DNA from: a virus
Reading direction: 5' to 3' (one strand)
DNA: 20,051 nucleotides
Virus record (IMG/VR): IMGVR_UViG_3300043544_000257
Location: 1-20,051 of that record
A model generated the notes under the pieces. It worked only from the letters and a program-made list of their open reading frames with translations. It had not been told where the DNA came from and did no database searches. This document shows, piece after piece, positions 568-20,012 of the stretch. The translations under genes and the position numbers were made by a program. Position 1 is the first letter of the stretch. Each line of letters starts with the position of its first letter.

Positions 568-1676
568 CGCCGCATCACCTCACCCAAAACTCGTCTCCAC
601 CGCTCCCGCCAGATGCGGATGTCGAAGGCCAGTGCCGTCTCCCGCGCCTTGCGGCCCACGGCCTCAAGGAACTCGCCGTGCCGGAGGAGCGCGGCCAGCT
701 TGGCGTGCAGCTTCTCGGCGTGAAGGTCAACGAAAAAGCCGTTGTAGCCGTCAATCACCAGGTTGGCCAAGCCCCCCACCGTGGTTGCCACCACAGGCAG
801 GCCAGAAGCCATCGCCTCCAGGGCGGCGAGGGAAGTTCCCTCCGCCGCCCTTGTAGGTATTACGGCCAGATCAACCTGCCGGTAGACCTCCGGCATCTCG
901 TCAAAGGAGCACTTGAGCCATCTCAAGTTGTGGTACTGACCGCAAATCTCGGCAAGTCTCGCTTCGTCAAGTTCTTCATCCCCGTGGCCCACCATCCAGA
1001 AGTCCACATCGGGAAGTTCTTTCACCGCCCACAGGAACTCGTTGCTCCCCCTAAGAGTAGTGAGCCGTCTGGGGTAGAGCACACGTGGCCGCTCCCAGTC
1101 CTTCGGCTCCTGTCTCGGGCAAAACACTGAAGTGTCCACGAAGTTAGGGACGTAGCGCATCCGCCTTTCCTCGCCCGGCCAGGTGGCCCGCACGAAGTTG
1201 ATCGCGTTGGTGTCCACGCAGACCACAGCATCTGGAGCCGTGAGGCCGTACTTCACCCGCCGGAAGTACTCCTTCTTGAAATTCTCCGGCCCGTTCGCCA
1301 GCGGGTGCTCCGGGTAGTCCCACCAGATGCCGTGGCAAACAGCTATGCACGGCGAGACCACCCTGGGGAAGCAAACGAACGGTGCAAAGTAAATCCTAAG
1401 GTCGGCGCTGAGGGCCACCTCATTGAAGAGCTTGTTCAAGAGCGGGTTTGTTTCGAAATCAAAAACGGTGCCCGGAAACCCGCGCACCGTCATGCCCTCG
1501 TACTTCGTTTCCCAGGCGTCTTCCCCGCACTGCACCACCAGCACCCGCCAGCCCTCGTCCCGGAAGAACCGTCCCAACTCCACCAGGTAGCGGTCGGCCC
1601 CCGAGCAGACTAGCGACGCGTCTTTTTTGCCGGCGGGGAAGAAAAACGTGGTCAGGATGGCAACGGTAGGCATCAT
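564..1676 (-). CDS. Glycosyltransferase family 4 (GT-B fold)
   Basis: This 370-aa protein should transfer a sugar from an activated donor to an acceptor in the cytoplasm. The C-terminal Rossmann half carries the GT4 signature: EGTSLAALE at 279-287 is the EX7E motif, followed by MASGLPVVAT, VGG and DGYNGFFVD. The N-terminal half starts with hydrophobic strand VAILTTFFFPAGKKD and includes the GADRYLVELGRFFRDEGW helix typical of the acceptor domain. Length is normal for the family and no membrane segment is evident. The start ATG ATG at 1676 overlaps the stop of the endonuclease gene by one base (TAATG), with GGCAGGG upstream. Placement between tail genes suggests glycosylation of a virion protein or host surface polymer; that role is inferred. 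Substrate and acceptor cannot be read from sequence. Confidence 0.88.
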   Translation of the reverse strand: MMPTVAILTTFFFPAGKKDASLVCSGADRYLVELGRFFRDEGWRVLVVQCGEDAWETKYEGMTVRGFPGTVFDFETNPLLNKLFNEVALSADLRIYFAPFVCFPRVVSPCIAVCHGIWWDYPEHPLANGPENFKKEYFRRVKYGLTAPDAVVCVDTNAINFVRATWPGEERRMRYVPNFVDTSVFCPRQEPKDWERPRVLYPRRLTTLRGSNEFLWAVKELPDVDFWMVGHGDEELDEARLAEICGQYHNLRWLKCSFDEMPEVYRQVDLAVIPTRAAEGTSLAALEAMASGLPVVATTVGGLANLVIDGYNGFFVDLHAEKLHAKLAALLRHGEFLEAVGRKARETALAFDIRIWRERWRRVLGEVMRR

Positions 1677-2575
1677 TAACCCTGCCTTGATACAACTTCG
1701 GCCTCTACTTCTGCTAGCACTTTCAATACCGCTCCCACAACATCGGCACGTATCTCTGGTTCGGTCAAATACACAACCTTGTAGCCAAGCGAGGTGATAT
1801 ACGCTTCGCGCCTCTTGTCATGCTCTATTCTGTCGGGAAAGTCATGCCAATAGTTTCCGTTACATTCTAGGACCAAGTTGTACTTTGGAAGGTAGAAATC
1901 CACCAAGTACGTCCCTATGATGTGTTGGTGGATGTGCTCTACATCCAATGCATCTAGGACACGACGCACCGCAACTTCAAGCGATGAGGTTTTCTGCGAC
2001 ATAATGCGCCGTATTCCACGCCTTAGTTTCATCAACTGCGTCCTTTTGTTCTCAGGATTACTCCACCACCTCTTGCGTGCTACCGATATCTTATAGCGTG
2101 TCTCCTCCGAGAACACTCTCCCACGCATCAATTCTGATAGGTATAACCGCCTAGTAGGGTCGCTCCAAAACAACTTGGCGTTCGCCTTACTCTTCACGCT
2201 TATCTTTCGCCGTGTCTCTTCCGGCAGTTTCTTGCCCTTACGCGCTTCCGACTGCTTTTTCCGCCACTCCTCTGATCGACCATGCTCAGCACAAAAACGC
2301 TTCAACGCCTCCGATATCTTCCTTCGCGTCTCCTCGGACCGTAGGCCAAATTTTCTACCACGTCTTGCTTCGGATATCTTGCACCGTGTTTCCTCGCTAT
2401 GCCTTTTTCCGTACATGGGATGGCCCGGTCCACGTATTTTCTCCGAAAACGCCCGTCGGCGCTCCCCGCTCCACTTCTGCCCTCTATGACCTTCTGCCAC
2501 ACGCCTAGCGTAGTCTGGATCCTGCCATCTGCGCTTAATGGCCTCACTAAGTCTTGCACGTACTTCCTCGGGCAT
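1676..2575 (-). CDS. NUMOD3-repeat EDxHD (Vsr-like) homing endonuclease
   Basis: This 299-aa protein has a highly basic N-terminal half with repeated NUMOD3-type DNA-binding motifs around SEETRxKIS (near 60-71, 80-90, 118-126, 156-165). A C-terminal Vsr/EDxHD-like nuclease domain follows from about 195. Candidate catalytic residues are E200 (SSLE), D226 (LVDFYLP) and H244-D245 (NYWHD), the order that defines the EDxHD class typified by I-Bth0305I. Such enzymes cleave a DNA site and promote copying of their own gene. I place the start at ATG 2575, with AAAGGG upstream; the frame also opens at TTG 2593 next to the stop of the fibre gene. It sits in the tail operon without a visible intron, so it appears free-standing. 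Its A/T-richer composition suggests later insertion. Confidence 0.88.
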   Translation of the reverse strand: MPEEVRARLSEAIKRRWQDPDYARRVAEGHRGQKWSGERRRAFSEKIRGPGHPMYGKRHSEETRCKISEARRGRKFGLRSEETRRKISEALKRFCAEHGRSEEWRKKQSEARKGKKLPEETRRKISVKSKANAKLFWSDPTRRLYLSELMRGRVFSEETRYKISVARKRWWSNPENKRTQLMKLRRGIRRIMSQKTSSLEVAVRRVLDALDVEHIHQHIIGTYLVDFYLPKYNLVLECNGNYWHDFPDRIEHDKRREAYITSLGYKVVYLTEPEIRADVVGAVLKVLAEVEAEVVSRQG

Positions 2576-2593
2576 CCTCTGCCCTTTCTGCAA

Positions 2594-15746: not shown

Positions 15747-16245
15747 TCACACTTCTAAATACAACTTCTGCCACCGCAGGGAGCGGCGCACGGCGTCGAA
15801 CCGCCTGCGGCTTCTGCGCCTACTGACGCCGCGCTTGCTACTGGACAGCACCACGACAGAGGTGGAGCGGAACTTCGGGAGCACTTCGCGCAAGCCGTAG
15901 TACTTGTCGTTTTCCACAGTGTGGGCCTCCCTGCCCGGTCGTCGTAGACGGTGTACTTCGTCATATAAATACCACAGCCGTCCTGCTTTTTCTCCACAGC
16001 TTTCCACAGGCTGTGACAGGTAACTTCTTTGCGACTGCCATTCTTGAACACTTCGCGGAGGATTTCTTTCGCGATCTCTTTCTTTGTGGGTTTGCGAGCC
16101 TTCGGACGGCGTTTCTCTACCGTTTCCGGCAGCCCATACCGCTGACGCCTTTCTCATGCGCTTCTTCAAACAACGCCCGGCCGATGTCGTCCGGTAGCCA
16201 CAGGCATATTCCCACAGTCGTGTTTATCACCTCCACACCTGGCAT
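15747..16245 (-). pseudogene. Frameshifted unknown gene (two apparent single-base losses)
   Basis: Three frames join into one plausible protein of about 165 residues. Frame one, from ATG 16245 (or GTG 16236), gives VEVINTTVGICLWLPDDIGR and FEEAHEKGVSG. After about 16139 the reading continues one frame over as YGLPETVEKRRPKARKPTKK and VTCHSLWKAVEKKQDGCGIY. After about 15929 it shifts again to EAHTVENDKYYGLREVLPKF, ending in a basic tail (RRRSRRRFDAVRRSLRW). Restoring one G to the GG at 16139-16140 and one G to the GGG at 15929-15931 repairs both junctions. This may be a decayed gene or homopolymer sequencing error. It reads toward the late promoter. No family is recognised. Confidence 0.55.
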
Positions 16246-16628: not shown

Positions 16629-16703
16629 GGCAAATTGGCAATTGGTCGTAGTTGGCAAATTGGCAATTGGTCGTAGTTGGCAAATTGGCAATTGGTCGTA
16701 GTT
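16629..16703. repeat. Three exact 25-bp tandem repeats (iteron-like)
   Basis: The 25-bp unit starts GGCAAATTGGCAATTGG and ends TCGTAGTT. It occurs at 16629-16653, 16654-16678 and 16679-16703, with a decayed fourth start at 16704. Each unit contains a shorter internal repeat (GGCAAATTGGCAATTGG). The core GTCGTAGT recurs at 16835-16842 and 17002-17009. Tandem repeats beside an A/T-rich palindromic region resemble iterons of a replication origin or multiple binding sites for a regulator. Confidence 0.75.
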
Positions 16704-16794
16704 GGCAGAATTGGTGGCTGCGTCAATCATCGCATCGTTATTGAAACGAGATGAGTGAGCGAGAGTGTATAACAGCGAAAAAGATAGAAAAAAT

Positions 16795-16860: not shown

Positions 16861-16874
16861 ATCGCGTTTGCGAT
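16861..16874. promoter_or_regulatory. Second ATCGC-N4-GCGAT operator candidate, at the rightward promoter
   Basis: ATCGCGTTTGCGAT overlaps the -35 box of the promoter at 16868-16896. It has the same ten conserved bases and gap as the site inside the late promoter. A half-site in the repeated word TGCGATAACT also occurs at 16824-16833. Confidence 0.6.
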
Positions 16875-16896
16875 AACTCGAGTGTGTGTGTATAAT
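16868..16896 (+). promoter_or_regulatory. Main rightward sigma-A-type promoter
   Basis: TTGCGA (16868-16873), 17-base spacer, TATAAT (16891-16896). Transcription should begin near 16903, about 20 bases before the GTG of the small RNA-binding-like gene. The first ribosome binding site, in a repeated GGTGAGGGA stretch, therefore lies at the very 5' end of the message. Confidence 0.78.
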
Positions 16897-16922: not shown

Positions 16923-17102
16923 GTGAAGAAGTGGTACAAGTGGCACCAGGGCGTGTGGGAGTGCACAATAACACTCCCCGCCGTCCGCGCTACAGGGTGC
17001 GGTCGTAGTAAAAAGGCGGCGTATGACGCCGCATGCGCCGCCTTATACGGCCGCCCGGTCGTATTGACTACAAACAATAGGAGAGTGAGGCTCTACGGCT
17101 AG
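16923..17102 (+). CDS. 59-aa protein resembling a minimal double-stranded-RNA-binding domain
   Basis: The start is GTG 16923 (MKKWYKWHQGVWECTITLP), preceded by GAGGTGAGGGAG. Other in-frame GTGs at 16905 and 16914 lie within the ribosome-binding stretch. Residues 4-24 form aromatic and basic strands. Residues 25-41 (GCGRSKKAAYDAACAAL) match the final loop-helix of dsRNA-binding domains, whose consensus is G.G.SKK.AK..AA..AL. At 59 residues it lacks the first helix of a full domain, so it would be a half or minimal version. In known domains SKK lysines contact the RNA backbone. It is the first gene after the rightward promoter and precedes an RNA-rich stretch, a suggestive context. Its coding sequence holds a 9-bp inverted repeat (17013-17021 and 17036-17044). 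Confidence 0.62.
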   Translation: MKKWYKWHQGVWECTITLPAVRATGCGRSKKAAYDAACAALYGRPVVLTTNNRRVRLYG

Positions 17103-17259
17103 CTCCGTCGAGCGCCTGTTTCAGTTTCAATCCTACGATGGTGCGATTGGTACTGAAACAGTTCTGCGCTGCGCGTGGCGCTAGTGTGGGCAGGTACTAG
17201 CGCCACGGCAGAGGCGGTCGCTGTTTCACGCTGAAACAGGAGTTCTTTGACAGTTTTTT
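17103..17259 (+). ncRNA. Cluster of three stable hairpins with a shared CTGTTTCA/TGAAACAG arm
   Basis: Hairpin 1: CTGTTTCAGT (17116-17125) with ACTGAAACAG (17152-17161), extended inward by CAATC (17128-17132) with GATTG (17145-17149). Together they give about 16 base pairs around a 12-base loop. Hairpin 2: GTGGCGCTAGT and ACTAGCGCCAC (about 17175-17206), 11 perfect pairs. Hairpin 3: CTGTTTCA (17221-17228) with TGAAACAG (17232-17239) around CGC. Arms of hairpins 1 and 3 are interchangeable, allowing alternative folds. Six T residues at 17254-17259 could mark a weak 3' end. No coding frame with a start signal fits. Function unknown. Confidence 0.5.
17124..17159. repeat. Isolated CRISPR-repeat-like sequence (degenerate)
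   Basis: This 36-base stretch begins GTTTCAATCC and ends CTGAAAC. Without six bases near its end (GTACTG, 17150-17155) it would be a 30-base unit with ends GTTTCAATC and GATTGAAAC, the form of common type I-B repeats in thermophilic Firmicutes. Only one copy is present. The same bases form hairpin 1 of the neighbouring cluster, so resemblance may be coincidental. Confidence 0.3.
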
Positions 17260-17633
17260 CCAGGCTGCGGCCTACTTGCCCGGGTGGCAGTCTGGGCAAT
17301 ATTGGCTGCTTCGTGGGAGTGCGGCGCAAGGCCGTACCTTGCGAAGTCGGCAGTCTGCCCTACCAGAGCAGGCTGGGAAACGCTGCCAGCCTAGCTGGCA
17401 CTGGCTGGCGCCACCCAGAATCTGGTAGTGGCTGTCCTGGGGCGCCGGGAATGCCTTCCGGCTTTGGACCAGGTTTGCCAGAACCTGGAAAACCGGCAGG
17501 GAGTTAGCTCCGGCGGCTTGGGGAGGACTGGCAAGTTCTGGCAACAGGACTTGCTGTCGGCTGGCGGTCGACACAAAAAGACGAGGCCGCCCGGCCCAAT
17601 ACGGCGCAAGGGTCGCAGCGGGCAGGCTTGTGG
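17260..17633 (+). ncRNA. Candidate large structured RNA (hairpin-dense, no gene)
   Basis: This G/C-rich spacer contains no convincing gene but many strong stems. CGCAAGG/CCTTGCG (about 17324-17342) sits inside CTTCG/CGAAG and GGGCA/TGCCC. CTGGG/CCCAG (about 17374-17419) encloses CCAGCC/GGCTGG. CCAGGTT/AACCTGG lies near 17469-17488. GCAAGTTCTG/CAGGACTTGC (about 17531-17554) is closed by a GCAA (GNRA) tetraloop. GGCC-GCCC-GGCC lies near 17585-17596. With the hairpins to its left and the kink-turn to its right it makes about 600 continuous structured bases, a size seen in ornate phage RNAs such as ROOL and GOLLD. I cannot show homology to either. It may be a separate RNA or the long leader of the 17709 gene. 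Confidence 0.5.
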
Positions 17634-17698
17634 GCTCGATGAAGCCTTGTGGGCTGAGGGCGTTTTGTACATACACATATACCAAAACGGAGGGGAGG
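17634..17698 (+). promoter_or_regulatory. Kink-turn-like leader element A, upstream of the 17709 gene
   Basis: GCUC (17634-17637) and GGGC (17658-17661) form one stem. GAU is a three-base bulge followed by GA, opposed by GA at 17656-17657. AGCC/GGCU closes a UUGUG loop. Stem, three-base bulge, GA/GA and second stem define a kink-turn. A further helix, GTTTTG (17662-17667) with CAAAAC (17683-17688), ends directly at the GGAGGGGAGG ribosome binding site. Confidence 0.6.
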
Positions 17699-17708
17699 TT
17701 GTAACACT

Positions 17709-18239
17709 ATGTTTGGCACCCTTATATATGCAGTTATGCTTTGGAGCCTGTCTCGGCGAGTTTCATTCGCTGAACTCGCTACTGATGACGAGGTGTGGGC
17801 AATCGCTGCTTACACCTCTGACAAAGATGATTACGCCTCCATCGTGGAGGCGGCGCAGTTCGCCTGCGAATTCCCGAATGAGGCGAACCGCCGTCTCCAC
17901 GAGCTTCACCTCGCCGACCCGGGCGTCCGTGCCCGGGCAGTAGAGATACTTGGCGAGGTAGCCTCCGCCTCGGCATGGGTGGAGGTGGAGCTAAGGGGCG
18001 CACCGGTGTACTCTCGGTGCGCCGACATCTCGGGAGTGGAGCGCCACGTCCATTCCCTTCTCGCTGATCTGGACGTGGCGCTGAAGTTCCGAACCTCGTG
18101 GTACTGCAACCACGAGGTGCCGGATGAGGCCTACTGCGAGTACGTCATAGTTGACGTATTCGCAGTGGACCATGCAAATCTGCGGCGGGTTCTTGCCCGC
18201 CTTGAGGACGCTGGACTCATGCCCAAGGCTCGATTTTAA
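17709..18239 (+). CDS. Unknown 176-aa phage protein
   Basis: The start is ATG 17709, with GGAGGGGAGG ten bases upstream. The first 14 residues (MFGTLIYAVMLWSL) are hydrophobic and could be a weak membrane or signal segment. The remainder is soluble, acidic and mixed alpha/beta (DDEVWAIAAYTSDKDDYASI, EANRRLHELHLADPGVRARA). A beta-alpha-beta-like end includes YCEYVIVDVFAVDHANLRRV. No catalytic motif is apparent; the few cysteines are not arranged as a zinc site. The leader contains kink-turn element A, and kink-turn element B begins within its stop codon, so its message abuts two RNA motifs. No family is recognised. Confidence 0.7.
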   Translation: MFGTLIYAVMLWSLSRRVSFAELATDDEVWAIAAYTSDKDDYASIVEAAQFACEFPNEANRRLHELHLADPGVRARAVEILGEVASASAWVEVELRGAPVYSRCADISGVERHVHSLLADLDVALKFRTSWYCNHEVPDEAYCEYVIVDVFAVDHANLRRVLARLEDAGLMPKARF

Positions 18240-18334
18240 GCCTGATGACGGCCTGTGGCCTGAGGGCTTGCTACATAATTCGCGCCGCCCGCCGCAATAT
18301 GGGGCGCGTAAGAAGTACCGGCGGGCAAAGGAGG
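18238..18334 (+). promoter_or_regulatory. Kink-turn-like leader element B with H-type pseudoknot, upstream of the 18363 gene
   Basis: AAGCCU (18238-18243) pairs with GGGCUU (18264-18269). GAU-GA on one side faces UGA on the other, and GGCC/GGCC closes a UGU loop. This includes UGAUGA and CUGA, the same strands as a box C/D kink-turn. Downstream, CGCGCC (18281-18286) pairs with GGCGCG (18303-18308), while GCCCGCCG (18287-18294) pairs with CGGCGGGC (18319-18326), a crossed arrangement typical of an H-type pseudoknot. Its last strand ends two bases before AGGAGG. Confidence 0.6.
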
Positions 18335-18362
18335 AATGATGATAAAGAAGGAGGAAATGTAC

Positions 18363-19085
18363 ATGAAGCTTAGCGATCAGGAGGTTGTAGGCCTGGTGAG
18401 GGAGGCCTACGAGGTCAAGTTAGACGATGCCGGAGTTGTAGTAATATTGCGGTCGCGCTCGACCGGCAAGGTGACTGTACTCGTGGCCGGGGGCAGGCGG
18501 GAGGTCGGCCTGCGGTGCGGGCGCGAATGGAGCGAGGAAGACCTCCGGAGGCTCGGCCTAGTAAGGCCGGAAGCGGAGTGGGTCCGGCTTTTGGCTCCGT
18601 CCGAGTGGGCGGAGCGGGCCGAGTGGAAAAGTCGCTACGGCAAGATGGACGAGAGAACCGTTCAGTACCTTAATGCGGTCCTCAAAAACATCGGGGCGAT
18701 CGGCGGGGTCGGGGATTTTCTGGACGGAAGTTCTTCACCTGTCCTGAAGGGAGAGGAGGTTGTTGAGCGGTTTCGCCTGGGTGCCTGCGGCCCCGAGGTG
18801 GAGGTCGGGCGGCACGGAGACGTGTGGGTCGTACAACGGGCGGATGTGACGCTGGATGACGCAGGCTTTACGGTCGTGCGCTTCTCGCGCCGGCCGAGCC
18901 GCAGGGACATCGAAACCGCCTTTCTGGTGGAGGGGCTTTACCTAGACTTCCTCTTCGGAGGCTTCGACCCTGTTTTCGAGTGCTGGGAATGCGGGGTCTG
19001 GCGGCACTGGTTGGACGTCTCGCCGCCGGACGGGTCCCTGGCCGGGCGCGCGGCCATGCTCCGCGAGCGCTACTGCGGGTGCTAG
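18363..19085 (+). CDS. Unknown 240-aa protein with C-terminal cysteine cluster
   Basis: ATG 18363 (MKLSDQEVVGLVREAYEVKL) has AAGGAGG eight bases upstream. An earlier in-frame ATG at 18336 has AGGAGG almost touching it, so tandem starts are possible. The N-terminal 80 residues are mixed alpha/beta (AGVVVILRSRSTGKVTVLVA). The middle is charged, and around 170-200 lies a beta-rich, Arg-rich patch (FTVVRFSRRPSRRDIETAF). The end has FECWECGVWRHW and a final YCGC, a possible CxxC...CxC zinc site. The function is not recognised. Expression is probably influenced by leader element B, whose pseudoknot lies against the first ribosome binding site. Confidence 0.72.
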   Translation: MKLSDQEVVGLVREAYEVKLDDAGVVVILRSRSTGKVTVLVAGGRREVGLRCGREWSEEDLRRLGLVRPEAEWVRLLAPSEWAERAEWKSRYGKMDERTVQYLNAVLKNIGAIGGVGDFLDGSSSPVLKGEEVVERFRLGACGPEVEVGRHGDVWVVQRADVTLDDAGFTVVRFSRRPSRRDIETAFLVEGLYLDFLFGGFDPVFECWECGVWRHWLDVSPPDGSLAGRAAMLRERYCGC

Positions 19086-19155
19086 TTCGTCCGGAAGGGG
19101 CGGTGCGGTACAGTTTCAATCCCTCATATCCCTGGTAGGCTGCGAACTTGTTTTA
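19086..19155. other. Spacer between the 18363 gene and leader element C
   Basis: No gene is seen. It contains the isolated CRISPR-repeat-like unit (19113-19147), listed separately. Confidence 0.4.
19113..19147. repeat. Isolated CRISPR-repeat-like unit
   Basis: The sequence is GTTTCAATCCCTCATA (19113-19128), five extra bases TCCCT, then GGTAGGCTGCGAAC (19134-19147). Without the insertion it is exactly 30 bases and, from memory, very like the 30-base type I-B repeats of thermophilic clostridia (GTTTCAATCCCTnATA followed by GGTAGGCT...AAC). There is a single copy and no spacer array. It could be a relic, or a solitary repeat of the kind phages use as RNA-based anti-CRISPRs. In the usual orientation the crRNA strand would be the minus strand. 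Confidence 0.45.
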
Positions 19156-19235
19156 GCCCGATGAGGTCCTGTGGGCCGAGAGCGCCGCGTATGCAACCCG
19201 CCGCAAGGCGGGCTTTAATTTTACGCGAGAGGAAG
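19156..19235 (+). promoter_or_regulatory. Kink-turn-like leader element C, upstream of the 19244 gene
   Basis: GCCC (19156-19159), GAU bulge, GA, then GGUCC/GGGCC around a UGU loop, GA at 19078+100 (19178-19179) and GAGC (19180-19183); the outer stem has one C-A mismatch. A second helix, CGCGTA (19186-19191) with TACGCG (19222-19227), encloses CCCGCC-GCAA-GGCGGG, a hairpin with a GNRA tetraloop (19197-19212). The TACGCG strand ends directly at the AGAGGAAG ribosome binding site. Confidence 0.6.
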
Positions 19236-19243
19236 TGAGATGG

Positions 19244-19492
19244 ATGCAAAAGGCCAGAGAGACCGCTCTTGTTGACCTCCTGTGGAGGCTTCTTGCGGAG
19301 GACGCTCTTCGGTTTGTTCGGCGGTACGATCTCGACGAACTTGCTGACGCTTTTGCGGATGCGCAGTCAAAGGTTGTGGAGACGCTGGAGCAACACGGCG
19401 TGGAATTGCTTCCGGCCCTTTTTGTCTTTACCGAGGGTTTGCGCATTCAGCTTTTTGATGTACTTGCGCTTCTGTTCTGTGAGGAGAGGTAA
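19244..19492 (+). CDS. Small helical protein, function unknown
   Basis: This 82-aa protein is read from ATG 19244 (MQKARETALVDLLWRLLAED), eight bases after AGGAAG; an in-frame GTG at 19235 overlaps that site. The sequence is acidic and predicted almost all-helical (RRYDLDELADAFADAQSKVV), with a more hydrophobic C-terminal helix (LRIQLFDVLALLFCEER). That end could be a buried helix or a weak membrane segment. No family is recognised. Leader element C lies directly against its ribosome binding site, so translation is probably controlled by RNA folding. Confidence 0.66.
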   Translation: MQKARETALVDLLWRLLAEDALRFVRRYDLDELADAFADAQSKVVETLEQHGVELLPALFVFTEGLRIQLFDVLALLFCEER

Positions 19493-19706: not shown

Positions 19707-20012
19707 GTGAGGTGTCCTAAATGTAAGGAAGGCGTTTTGTGGCTCCGCGTGGATCGCAGGTATACAGAAGAATACATGTTGCGTAGCGACGGAACTGTTG
19801 GCGCCGAACCCGACTATGTGAGCTACCTTGACGGGGATGGAAGTGCTTGGATCGAGTGCGACCACCCGACCTGCACTTACTACGCCGTAGTGCTTGAGTG
19901 GGATGGGAAGGGCCAGGTTTTCATGGTGTGGGATGAGGTATTCAAAGTAGATATGCCGTTTGAGCGCTATAAACAACACATCGAGGAGGTGCTTGCTGGT
20001 GTTGACGTTTGA
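19707..20012 (+). CDS. Small zinc-ribbon-like protein
   Basis: This 101-aa protein is taken from GTG 19707 (MRCPKCKEGVLWLRVDRR), where GAGAGGGG lies about nine bases upstream. A TTG at 19698 overlaps the previous stop but abuts that site. CPKC at 3-6 and a second pair in IECDHPTCTYYAV (about 50-56) form a likely four-cysteine zinc ribbon, with beta strands between. The C-terminal half is aromatic and acidic (VFMVWDEVFKVDMPFERYKQ). Such proteins may bind nucleic acid or be structural; no specific function is supported. Confidence 0.72.
   Translation: MRCPKCKEGVLWLRVDRRYTEEYMLRSDGTVGAEPDYVSYLDGDGSAWIECDHPTCTYYAVVLEWDGKGQVFMVWDEVFKVDMPFERYKQHIEEVLAGVDV

Follow-up and report, generated by a model that had tools for sequence, protein, structure and literature searches.

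What do the leaders of successive early genes in a phage have in common, and what might read it? The question is raised by the window analysed here, the whole 20,051 bases of the IMG/VR virus record IMGVR_UViG_3300043544_000257. Its minus strand carries the structural genes (terminase, portal, major capsid, adaptor), and its plus strand, from about 16,870 onward, holds small genes assigned to no family downstream of a strong sigma-A type promoter, TTGCGA-17-TATAAT at 16868..16896 (+), which matches the consensus at 10 of 12 positions and stands at the head of the early operon. Three of these genes follow the leaders under study, at 17709..18239 (+; 176 aa, no family), 18336..19085 (+; start at 18336 or 18363, no family) and 19235..19492 (+; 85 aa, start at 19235 or 19244), the gene starts in the window being our own reading. 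Two further observations concern the same record: GGCAAATTGGCAATTGGTCGTAGTT is repeated three times in tandem at 16631-16708, upstream of the early promoter, and is possibly operator-like, and a homing-endonuclease-like protein with NUMOD3 and DUF559/Vsr-type nuclease domains is encoded at 1676-2593 (-) among the tail-side genes.

The most conspicuous repeat in the leaders is a 30-nt element of the form GCYY-GAU-GA-stem-UGU-stem-GA-GRGC. Copy 1 (17633..17662, +) lies at the 3' end of a large RNA described below and overlaps its terminal helix P1, copy 2 (18239..18268, +) has a C stem that begins inside the stop codon of the preceding gene, and copy 3 (19155..19184, +) carries one C-A mismatch in the C stem. 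These were the only matches in the window when up to three mismatches were allowed in a pattern scan, and dinucleotide shuffles of the window gave a mean of 0.05 matches and never reached three. The scan confirms the claim of an earlier note on this DNA that one motif recurs in the leaders of successive genes, and what that note had presented as the interval 17634-19235 proves to be three separate elements with genes in between. Shuffled windows contain a strict K-turn skeleton about 0.1 times each, so single matches mean little, and recurrence is what counts.

The element recurs beyond the window. The full record of a sister phage (IMGVR_UViG_3300005860_000047, 54.9 kb), whose terminase segment is 59% identical to that of the window, holds two further copies, and a covariance model of these five copies recovered exactly the same five when run on 222 kb of related loci. 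The five-copy model was also run on 319 genomes of the presumed host phylum, taken for this search from the host of a distant relative (a Thermincola MAG), and found two copies (E 2e-5 and 4e-4) in one of them, G027, whose contig 1 carries, at about 24 kb, a prophage belonging to the same family. The total is therefore seven copies in three phages (window three, sister phage two, prophage two), so that homologues with compensatory changes do exist, as the earlier note had proposed to check with such a model. The element had no match in Rfam, in agreement with the note's statement that no named element of this form was known; a box C/D snoRNA model matched copy 2 weakly, below threshold. We regard it as almost certain that the element is real. 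Pattern matches in other viral contigs were mainly chance matches in coding sequence: one was real among 22, 30 and 13 loci, the sister phage being the sole true homologue. A 35-nt match in MT835722.1 was dropped since it lies inside a reading frame taken for cas2, and a 34-nt match in G159 was dropped as chance-like.

The terminase of the prophage and its neighbours align with the window and the sister phage at 64-91% DNA identity over short stretches, an equivalent of the early promoter (TTG-17-TATAAT) is present in both the sister phage and the prophage, and the sister phage encodes an integrase and an S24-type repressor. These comparisons suggest that the three represent one phage family of Bacillota, at least partly temperate, the host phylum being deduced from the host of the distant relative (the Thermincola MAG) and from the prophage. 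Two peculiarities were seen in these relatives. The terminase large subunit frame of the sister phage (8977-11814, -; 945 aa) contains an intein-like insertion that is absent from the terminase of the window, and a long GAG/GAG-type repeat run in the early region of the prophage (L101, G027:C1, approximately 15950-16000, -) ends a frame and gives it a poly-glutamate tail.

Known kink-turns of the Kt-7, box C/D and U4 types, bound by L7Ae, YbxF or YlxQ, share with our element a C stem, a three-nucleotide bulge, two tandem G-A pairs and an NC stem; here they are repeated in intercistronic phage leaders together with the word UACAUA. All seven copies have (G/A)AU-GA on the bulged strand and GA on the opposite strand, between a C stem not longer than 5 bp and an NC stem of 3-5 bp; the three window copies all show GAU-GA ... 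GA and a UGU loop. The tandem G·A signature is invariant across the seven while the stems vary, which bears out the kink-turn consensus that had been proposed from three copies. Six of the seven copies have a C-G pair beside the bulge; copy 2 has U-G there. Every part expected of a kink-turn in sequence (C stem, bulge, tandem G-A/A-G, NC stem) is present, with one imperfect position each in copy 2 (a C-U opposition beside the G-A pairs) and copy 3 (the C-A mismatch, GCCC/GAGC). The stems had been said to keep pairing, and apart from these two positions they largely do: standard pairs fill 91% of pair cells in the seven copies, compared with 22-62% when the partner is slid by 1-3 positions, and 92% in the MAFFT alignment of five copies, where the same trend is weaker. 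The covariation was anecdotal on three copies and is real on seven: eight cells, affecting both stems, are changed on both sides, which one of 2000 shuffles reached, a strong result that ignores relatedness and is not to be read as a probability. For the seven-copy statistics the sequences were aligned by hand, with a single gap to accommodate the prophage copies, as MAFFT misplaced that gap. From these patterns we judge that the kink-turn geometry probably forms.

Could the same conservation reflect a short peptide (M-x-x-C-G-x-R-A or D-E-A-L-W-A-E-G)? In the first five copies, five of eight variable columns do coincide with the third positions of codons in the ATG frame, as coding would predict. 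Against this, the NC hairpin of both prophage copies has a 1-nt deletion that shifts the frame, the sixth codon of one of the two is UGA, a TAG right before copy 3 closes the other frame, and the stems covary across the frame. Because RNA pairing survives the deletion and the peptide does not, the peptide reading is refuted, and we leave it a negligible probability.

When the leaders of all three phages are compared, the kink-turn turns out to be one form of a larger unit. The order is hairpin 1 (kink-turn or plain), 0-9 nt, a single-stranded UACAUA, usually hairpin 2, the Shine-Dalgarno sequence and the start codon. Hairpin 1 is a kink-turn in 7 of the 16 leaders and in most others a plain hairpin, often folded across the upstream stop codon, and UACAUA is present in 15. 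Leader 1 of the window has UACAUA at 17668..17673 (+), in the loop of a weak hairpin (17662-17667/17683-17688) that ends at the Shine-Dalgarno sequence; leader 2 has it at 18272..18277 (+), downstream of copy 2, followed by hairpin 2 at 18287..18326 (+; GCCCGCCG/CGGCGGGC), directly before AAAGGAGG; and leader 3 has kept its kink-turn and a hairpin 2 at 19197..19212 (+; CCCGCC-GCAA-GGCGGG), the site itself being lost, with a degenerate CGUAUGC at 19188..19194 (+) in place of GUACAUA. In the sister phage, the leaders at 16177, 16562, 17042 and 31074 lack a kink-turn and show a plain G+C-rich hairpin at similar distance, then UACAUA, then Shine-Dalgarno, and three of these four hairpins fold over the stop codon of the preceding gene. 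All six sense-strand UACAUA in the 18-kb early stretch of the prophage are in leaders (two with a kink-turn, three with a plain hairpin, one without a clear hairpin 1), most of them with a second hairpin downstream of the word. We consider it very probable that these leaders constitute an intercistronic module of which the kink-turn is one form of hairpin 1.

The earlier note had proposed that a kink-turn, acting as a riboswitch or protein switch, coordinates a set of accessory genes, and its interpretation is partly supported. A repeated RNA element acting in cis stands, and the constancy of the kink-turn signature over seven copies despite stem variation speaks for a switch. The kink-turn is however missing from nine of the 16 leaders, where plain hairpins mostly replace it and UACAUA is what is shared between hairpin 1 and the Shine-Dalgarno sequence, so it is not the common denominator; no aptamer-like conserved core lies outside it, and Rfam gave no match. 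Such a switch is therefore quite improbable. An L7Ae-family partner (YbxF/YlxQ) for the kink-turn is possible.

The hexamer is enriched in a strand-specific manner. UACAUA occurs 14 times on the sense strand of the three early regions, where 3.9 are expected, and 8 times on the other strand, and it ranks 7th of 4096 over-represented sense hexamers, four of the six above it being Shine-Dalgarno-type words; the expected counts derive from low-order Markov models of short regions, and the early regions were chosen after the motif had been seen. All 14 sense sites lie within leaders. Four of them are crossed by open frames with Shine-Dalgarno-like starts, frames that we judged spurious. On the plus strand of the sister phage from 15 kb, 13 sites stand against 1.7 expected, and on the other strand 3 against 2.1. 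Seven of its sites fall outside the scored early region: a leader at 37126 has one, and the other six belong to noncoding, GGC-rich arrays that are not directly before genes. Two such arrays, in which CTACATA recurs at intervals among degenerate GGC-rich repeats, occupy 36.7-38.7 kb of the sister phage; in the first of them, the final unit precedes a gene start. The predicted unpaired probability of UACAUA averages 0.65, compared with 0.38 at control positions; the site at 19782 of the sister phage is predicted to be paired (0.01), and the word is strictly free in only some predicted folds. No complementarity between UACAUA and the large RNA was found.

An A+T-rich word confined to one strand before genes in G+C-rich genomes would also be expected if TACATA were a promoter -10 box and the hairpin the terminator of the preceding gene. 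Upstream by 16-18 nt, however, there is no -35 box (1.8 of 6 matches on average, against 2.3 in controls), TACATA does not end in the T of a -10 box, and a U-tract is mostly missing after the hairpins, all of which makes this explanation very unlikely.

The word is identical in all six bases to the target of a known family of endoribonucleases. EndoA, a MazF of Bacillus subtilis, cuts in vivo strictly at U/ACAUA, requires the sixth base, and leaves a cut signature that vanishes in an ndoA deletion (PMC11780869); MazF of Symbiobacterium thermophilum (MazF-sth) cuts U^ACAUA (PMC10893535). Known EndoA/MazF sites are scattered over cellular mRNAs, and those of the phages are confined to leaders, between hairpins, in a mostly single-stranded context, so that the U^ACAUA sequence is found here in RNA predicted to be accessible, as a MazF/EndoA target should be. 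The genome that bears the prophage encodes a single MazF-family protein, identical to EndoA at 77 of 115 residues (67%), with a small gene beside it that we take to be the antitoxin gene. Neither virus record (window, sister phage) encodes a mazF. A 5-mer cutter should leave UACAU depleted in early frames, and no such depletion was seen; the literature that we searched yielded no description of UACAUA sites in phage leaders.

That host MazF/EndoA reads UACAUA and cuts the leaders is in our view the most likely mechanism, inferred from sequence and held at slightly less than even odds. Cleavage by MazF would explain at once why all six letters agree, why the word sits single-stranded between hairpins, why it favours one strand and why it is confined to leaders. 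The early operon would be transcribed from one sigma-A promoter, and the host enzyme would cut each leader at U^ACAUA, leaving an upstream piece with a 3'-terminal hairpin (with copy 1, the 3' end of the large RNA), and the downstream gene would gain a new 5' end and keep a hairpin and its whole Shine-Dalgarno sequence. Early gene expression would thereby be processed by, or sensitive to, the state of the host MazEF. The least certain step is the part played by the kink-turn, which probably either gives hairpin 1 added stability or serves as a docking site for a host protein of the L7Ae family. Wild-type B. subtilis shows no EndoA cuts unless an exonuclease is lost (PMC11780869), so the mechanism requires that MazF be released. 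Two points weigh against it or escape it: leader 3 of the window has GUAUGCA and has lost the site, and MazF cleavage leaves the recurrence of the kink-turn unaccounted for, since plain hairpins replace it. The hexamer could instead be a binding site for another protein or RNA. To the fuller reading, dedicated processing by host MazF/EndoA with one U^ACAUA per early cistron leader, MazEF activity setting the early programme (e.g. lysis versus lysogeny) and the first cut freeing a new RNA of about 540 nt, we give a probability of roughly 0.4.

A start-associated element working without a nuclease must also be considered. The SAS/ESAS of Cluster K mycobacteriophages (PMC3203893) likewise combine a short word and an inverted repeat just before the starts of non-structural genes, at the same genome position, with function unproven; and our copies, scattered over unrelated genes, would fit an element for translation or mRNA stability spread by recombination between gene cassettes. 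The phage leaders differ from them in sequence, in distance from the start, in the RNA hairpin with a kink-turn and in host phylum. The 13-bp GGGATAGGAGCCC found at the ribosome-binding site in SAS/ESAS is absent from the leaders read, UACAUA stands upstream of the Shine-Dalgarno sequence and not at it, and the 6/6-letter identity with the EndoA site would be coincidence. We hold an element of this type to be improbable.

Somewhat less unlikely is a protein-binding translational leader, in which a phage or host RNA binder would sit on hairpin 1 and UACAUA and set access to the Shine-Dalgarno sequence with no cleavage. YbxF or YlxQ on the kink-turn would be one candidate, and YbxF/OapC is indeed known to bind the kink-turn of OLE, a large RNA (PMC9723947). 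A second candidate is the 59-aa protein encoded at 16923..17102 (+; 65 aa if the start is 16905), with a homologue at 54% identity in the sister phage and no match in Pfam. Its AlphaFold model (pLDDT about 89 for residues 1-42) is a predicted truncated dsRNA-binding domain, with the beta-beta-beta-alpha core and the fold relatives of a dsRBD; it lacks the first helix, alpha-1, and begins with strand 1. The best PDB matches in Foldseek are nearly all dsRBDs (R2D2, RNase III, TRBP), with probabilities up to 1.00 and E-values of at least 0.048, weak because the protein is short, and superposition on 8kfp gives an rmsd of 1.2 over 43 columns. On this model the protein is a candidate RNA binder of a non-L7Ae kind. 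The placement of the module directly before the Shine-Dalgarno sequence in all leaders, the kink-turn consensus and the dsRBD-like gene in two of the three phages all fit regulation by binding. Yet hairpin 1 swaps with unrelated plain hairpins, a dsRBD has no sequence specificity toward UACAUA, and tblastn of the prophage region found no homologue of the protein; we therefore place it below processing by MazF.

The large structured noncoding RNA (17103..17641, +; about 540 nt) begins immediately downstream of the 59-aa gene's stop codon, with copy 1 at its 3' edge and a second locus at L075:15251-15790. Its MFE z is -7.3 in the window and -5.6 in the sister phage, 385 nt align to the sister phage at 85% identity, above most structural genes, and the two-sequence consensus has 171 pairs, 22 of them changed on both sides, against 0-4 in slid controls. 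The terminal helix P1 pairs 17106-17116 with 17632-17641, GGGCUCGAUG of copy 1, and a G-to-A change in the kink-turn bulge of the sister phage is compensated by C-to-U in the 5' strand. As P1 overlaps copy 1, kink-turn and P1 are mutually exclusive there; judging from the predicted pairings, copy 1 would either be a switch or serve P1, the kink-turn mattering only in the other copies. In OLE RNA, too, a kink-turn is in competition with other helices (PMC9723947), and our RNA resembles OLE in approximate size and high structure and ROOL and GOLLD in being phage-borne. In contrast to these, it has an adjacent dsRBD-like gene, no tRNA was found in the sister phage, and searches at permissive thresholds matched it to no Rfam family, nor to the OLE, ROOL and GOLLD models even at E up to 5-10. 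Searched as DNA or as a core model in up to 398 genomes of the phylum, it had no homologue. A noncoding stretch of the prophage in a similar place, before leader A, has z = -3.7 and was not matched by the core model.

Two sequences reminiscent of CRISPR repeats occur in the same region. At 17118-17163 an inverted repeat, CTGTTTCAGT ... ACTGAAACAG, contains GTTTCAATCC; its reverse complement contains GATTGAAAC, like the end of many CRISPR repeats. The inverted repeat was not found in 398 genomes of the phylum and is absent from the sister phage. A lone CRISPR-repeat-like unit, GTTTCAATCCCTCATA-tccct-GGTAGGCTGCGAAC, lies at 19113..19147 (+), 7 nt before copy 3, and scores below the gathering threshold; of 81 genomes from the presumed host phylum, 11 have arrays built of the insert-free form of this repeat, and the unit is a candidate RNA anti-CRISPR of the solitary-repeat type (PMC10651486).

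New in these phages are a family of kink-turns borne by leaders, a large structured RNA and, encoded beside it, a small dsRBD-like protein. Among known systems, a close parallel is the AimX/YosL/phi3T_93-MazEF network of phage phi3T, where an early programme is also tied to an EndoA-type host MazF (PMC10769878); there, phage proteins act on MazEF, and the link proposed here consists of RNA sites in the phage's own leaders. Host MazF promotes lysogeny of temperate Bacillus phages such as phi3T by a route stated to be unknown, perhaps the cutting of lytic transcripts (PMC10769878), and leaders of the UACAUA kind would be one possible route. The exact EndoA hexamer stands before many early genes and in no credited early frame, which makes the question of MazF and lysogeny directly testable. 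If the reading is true, a toxin usually viewed as a defence would become a processing enzyme for phage mRNA.
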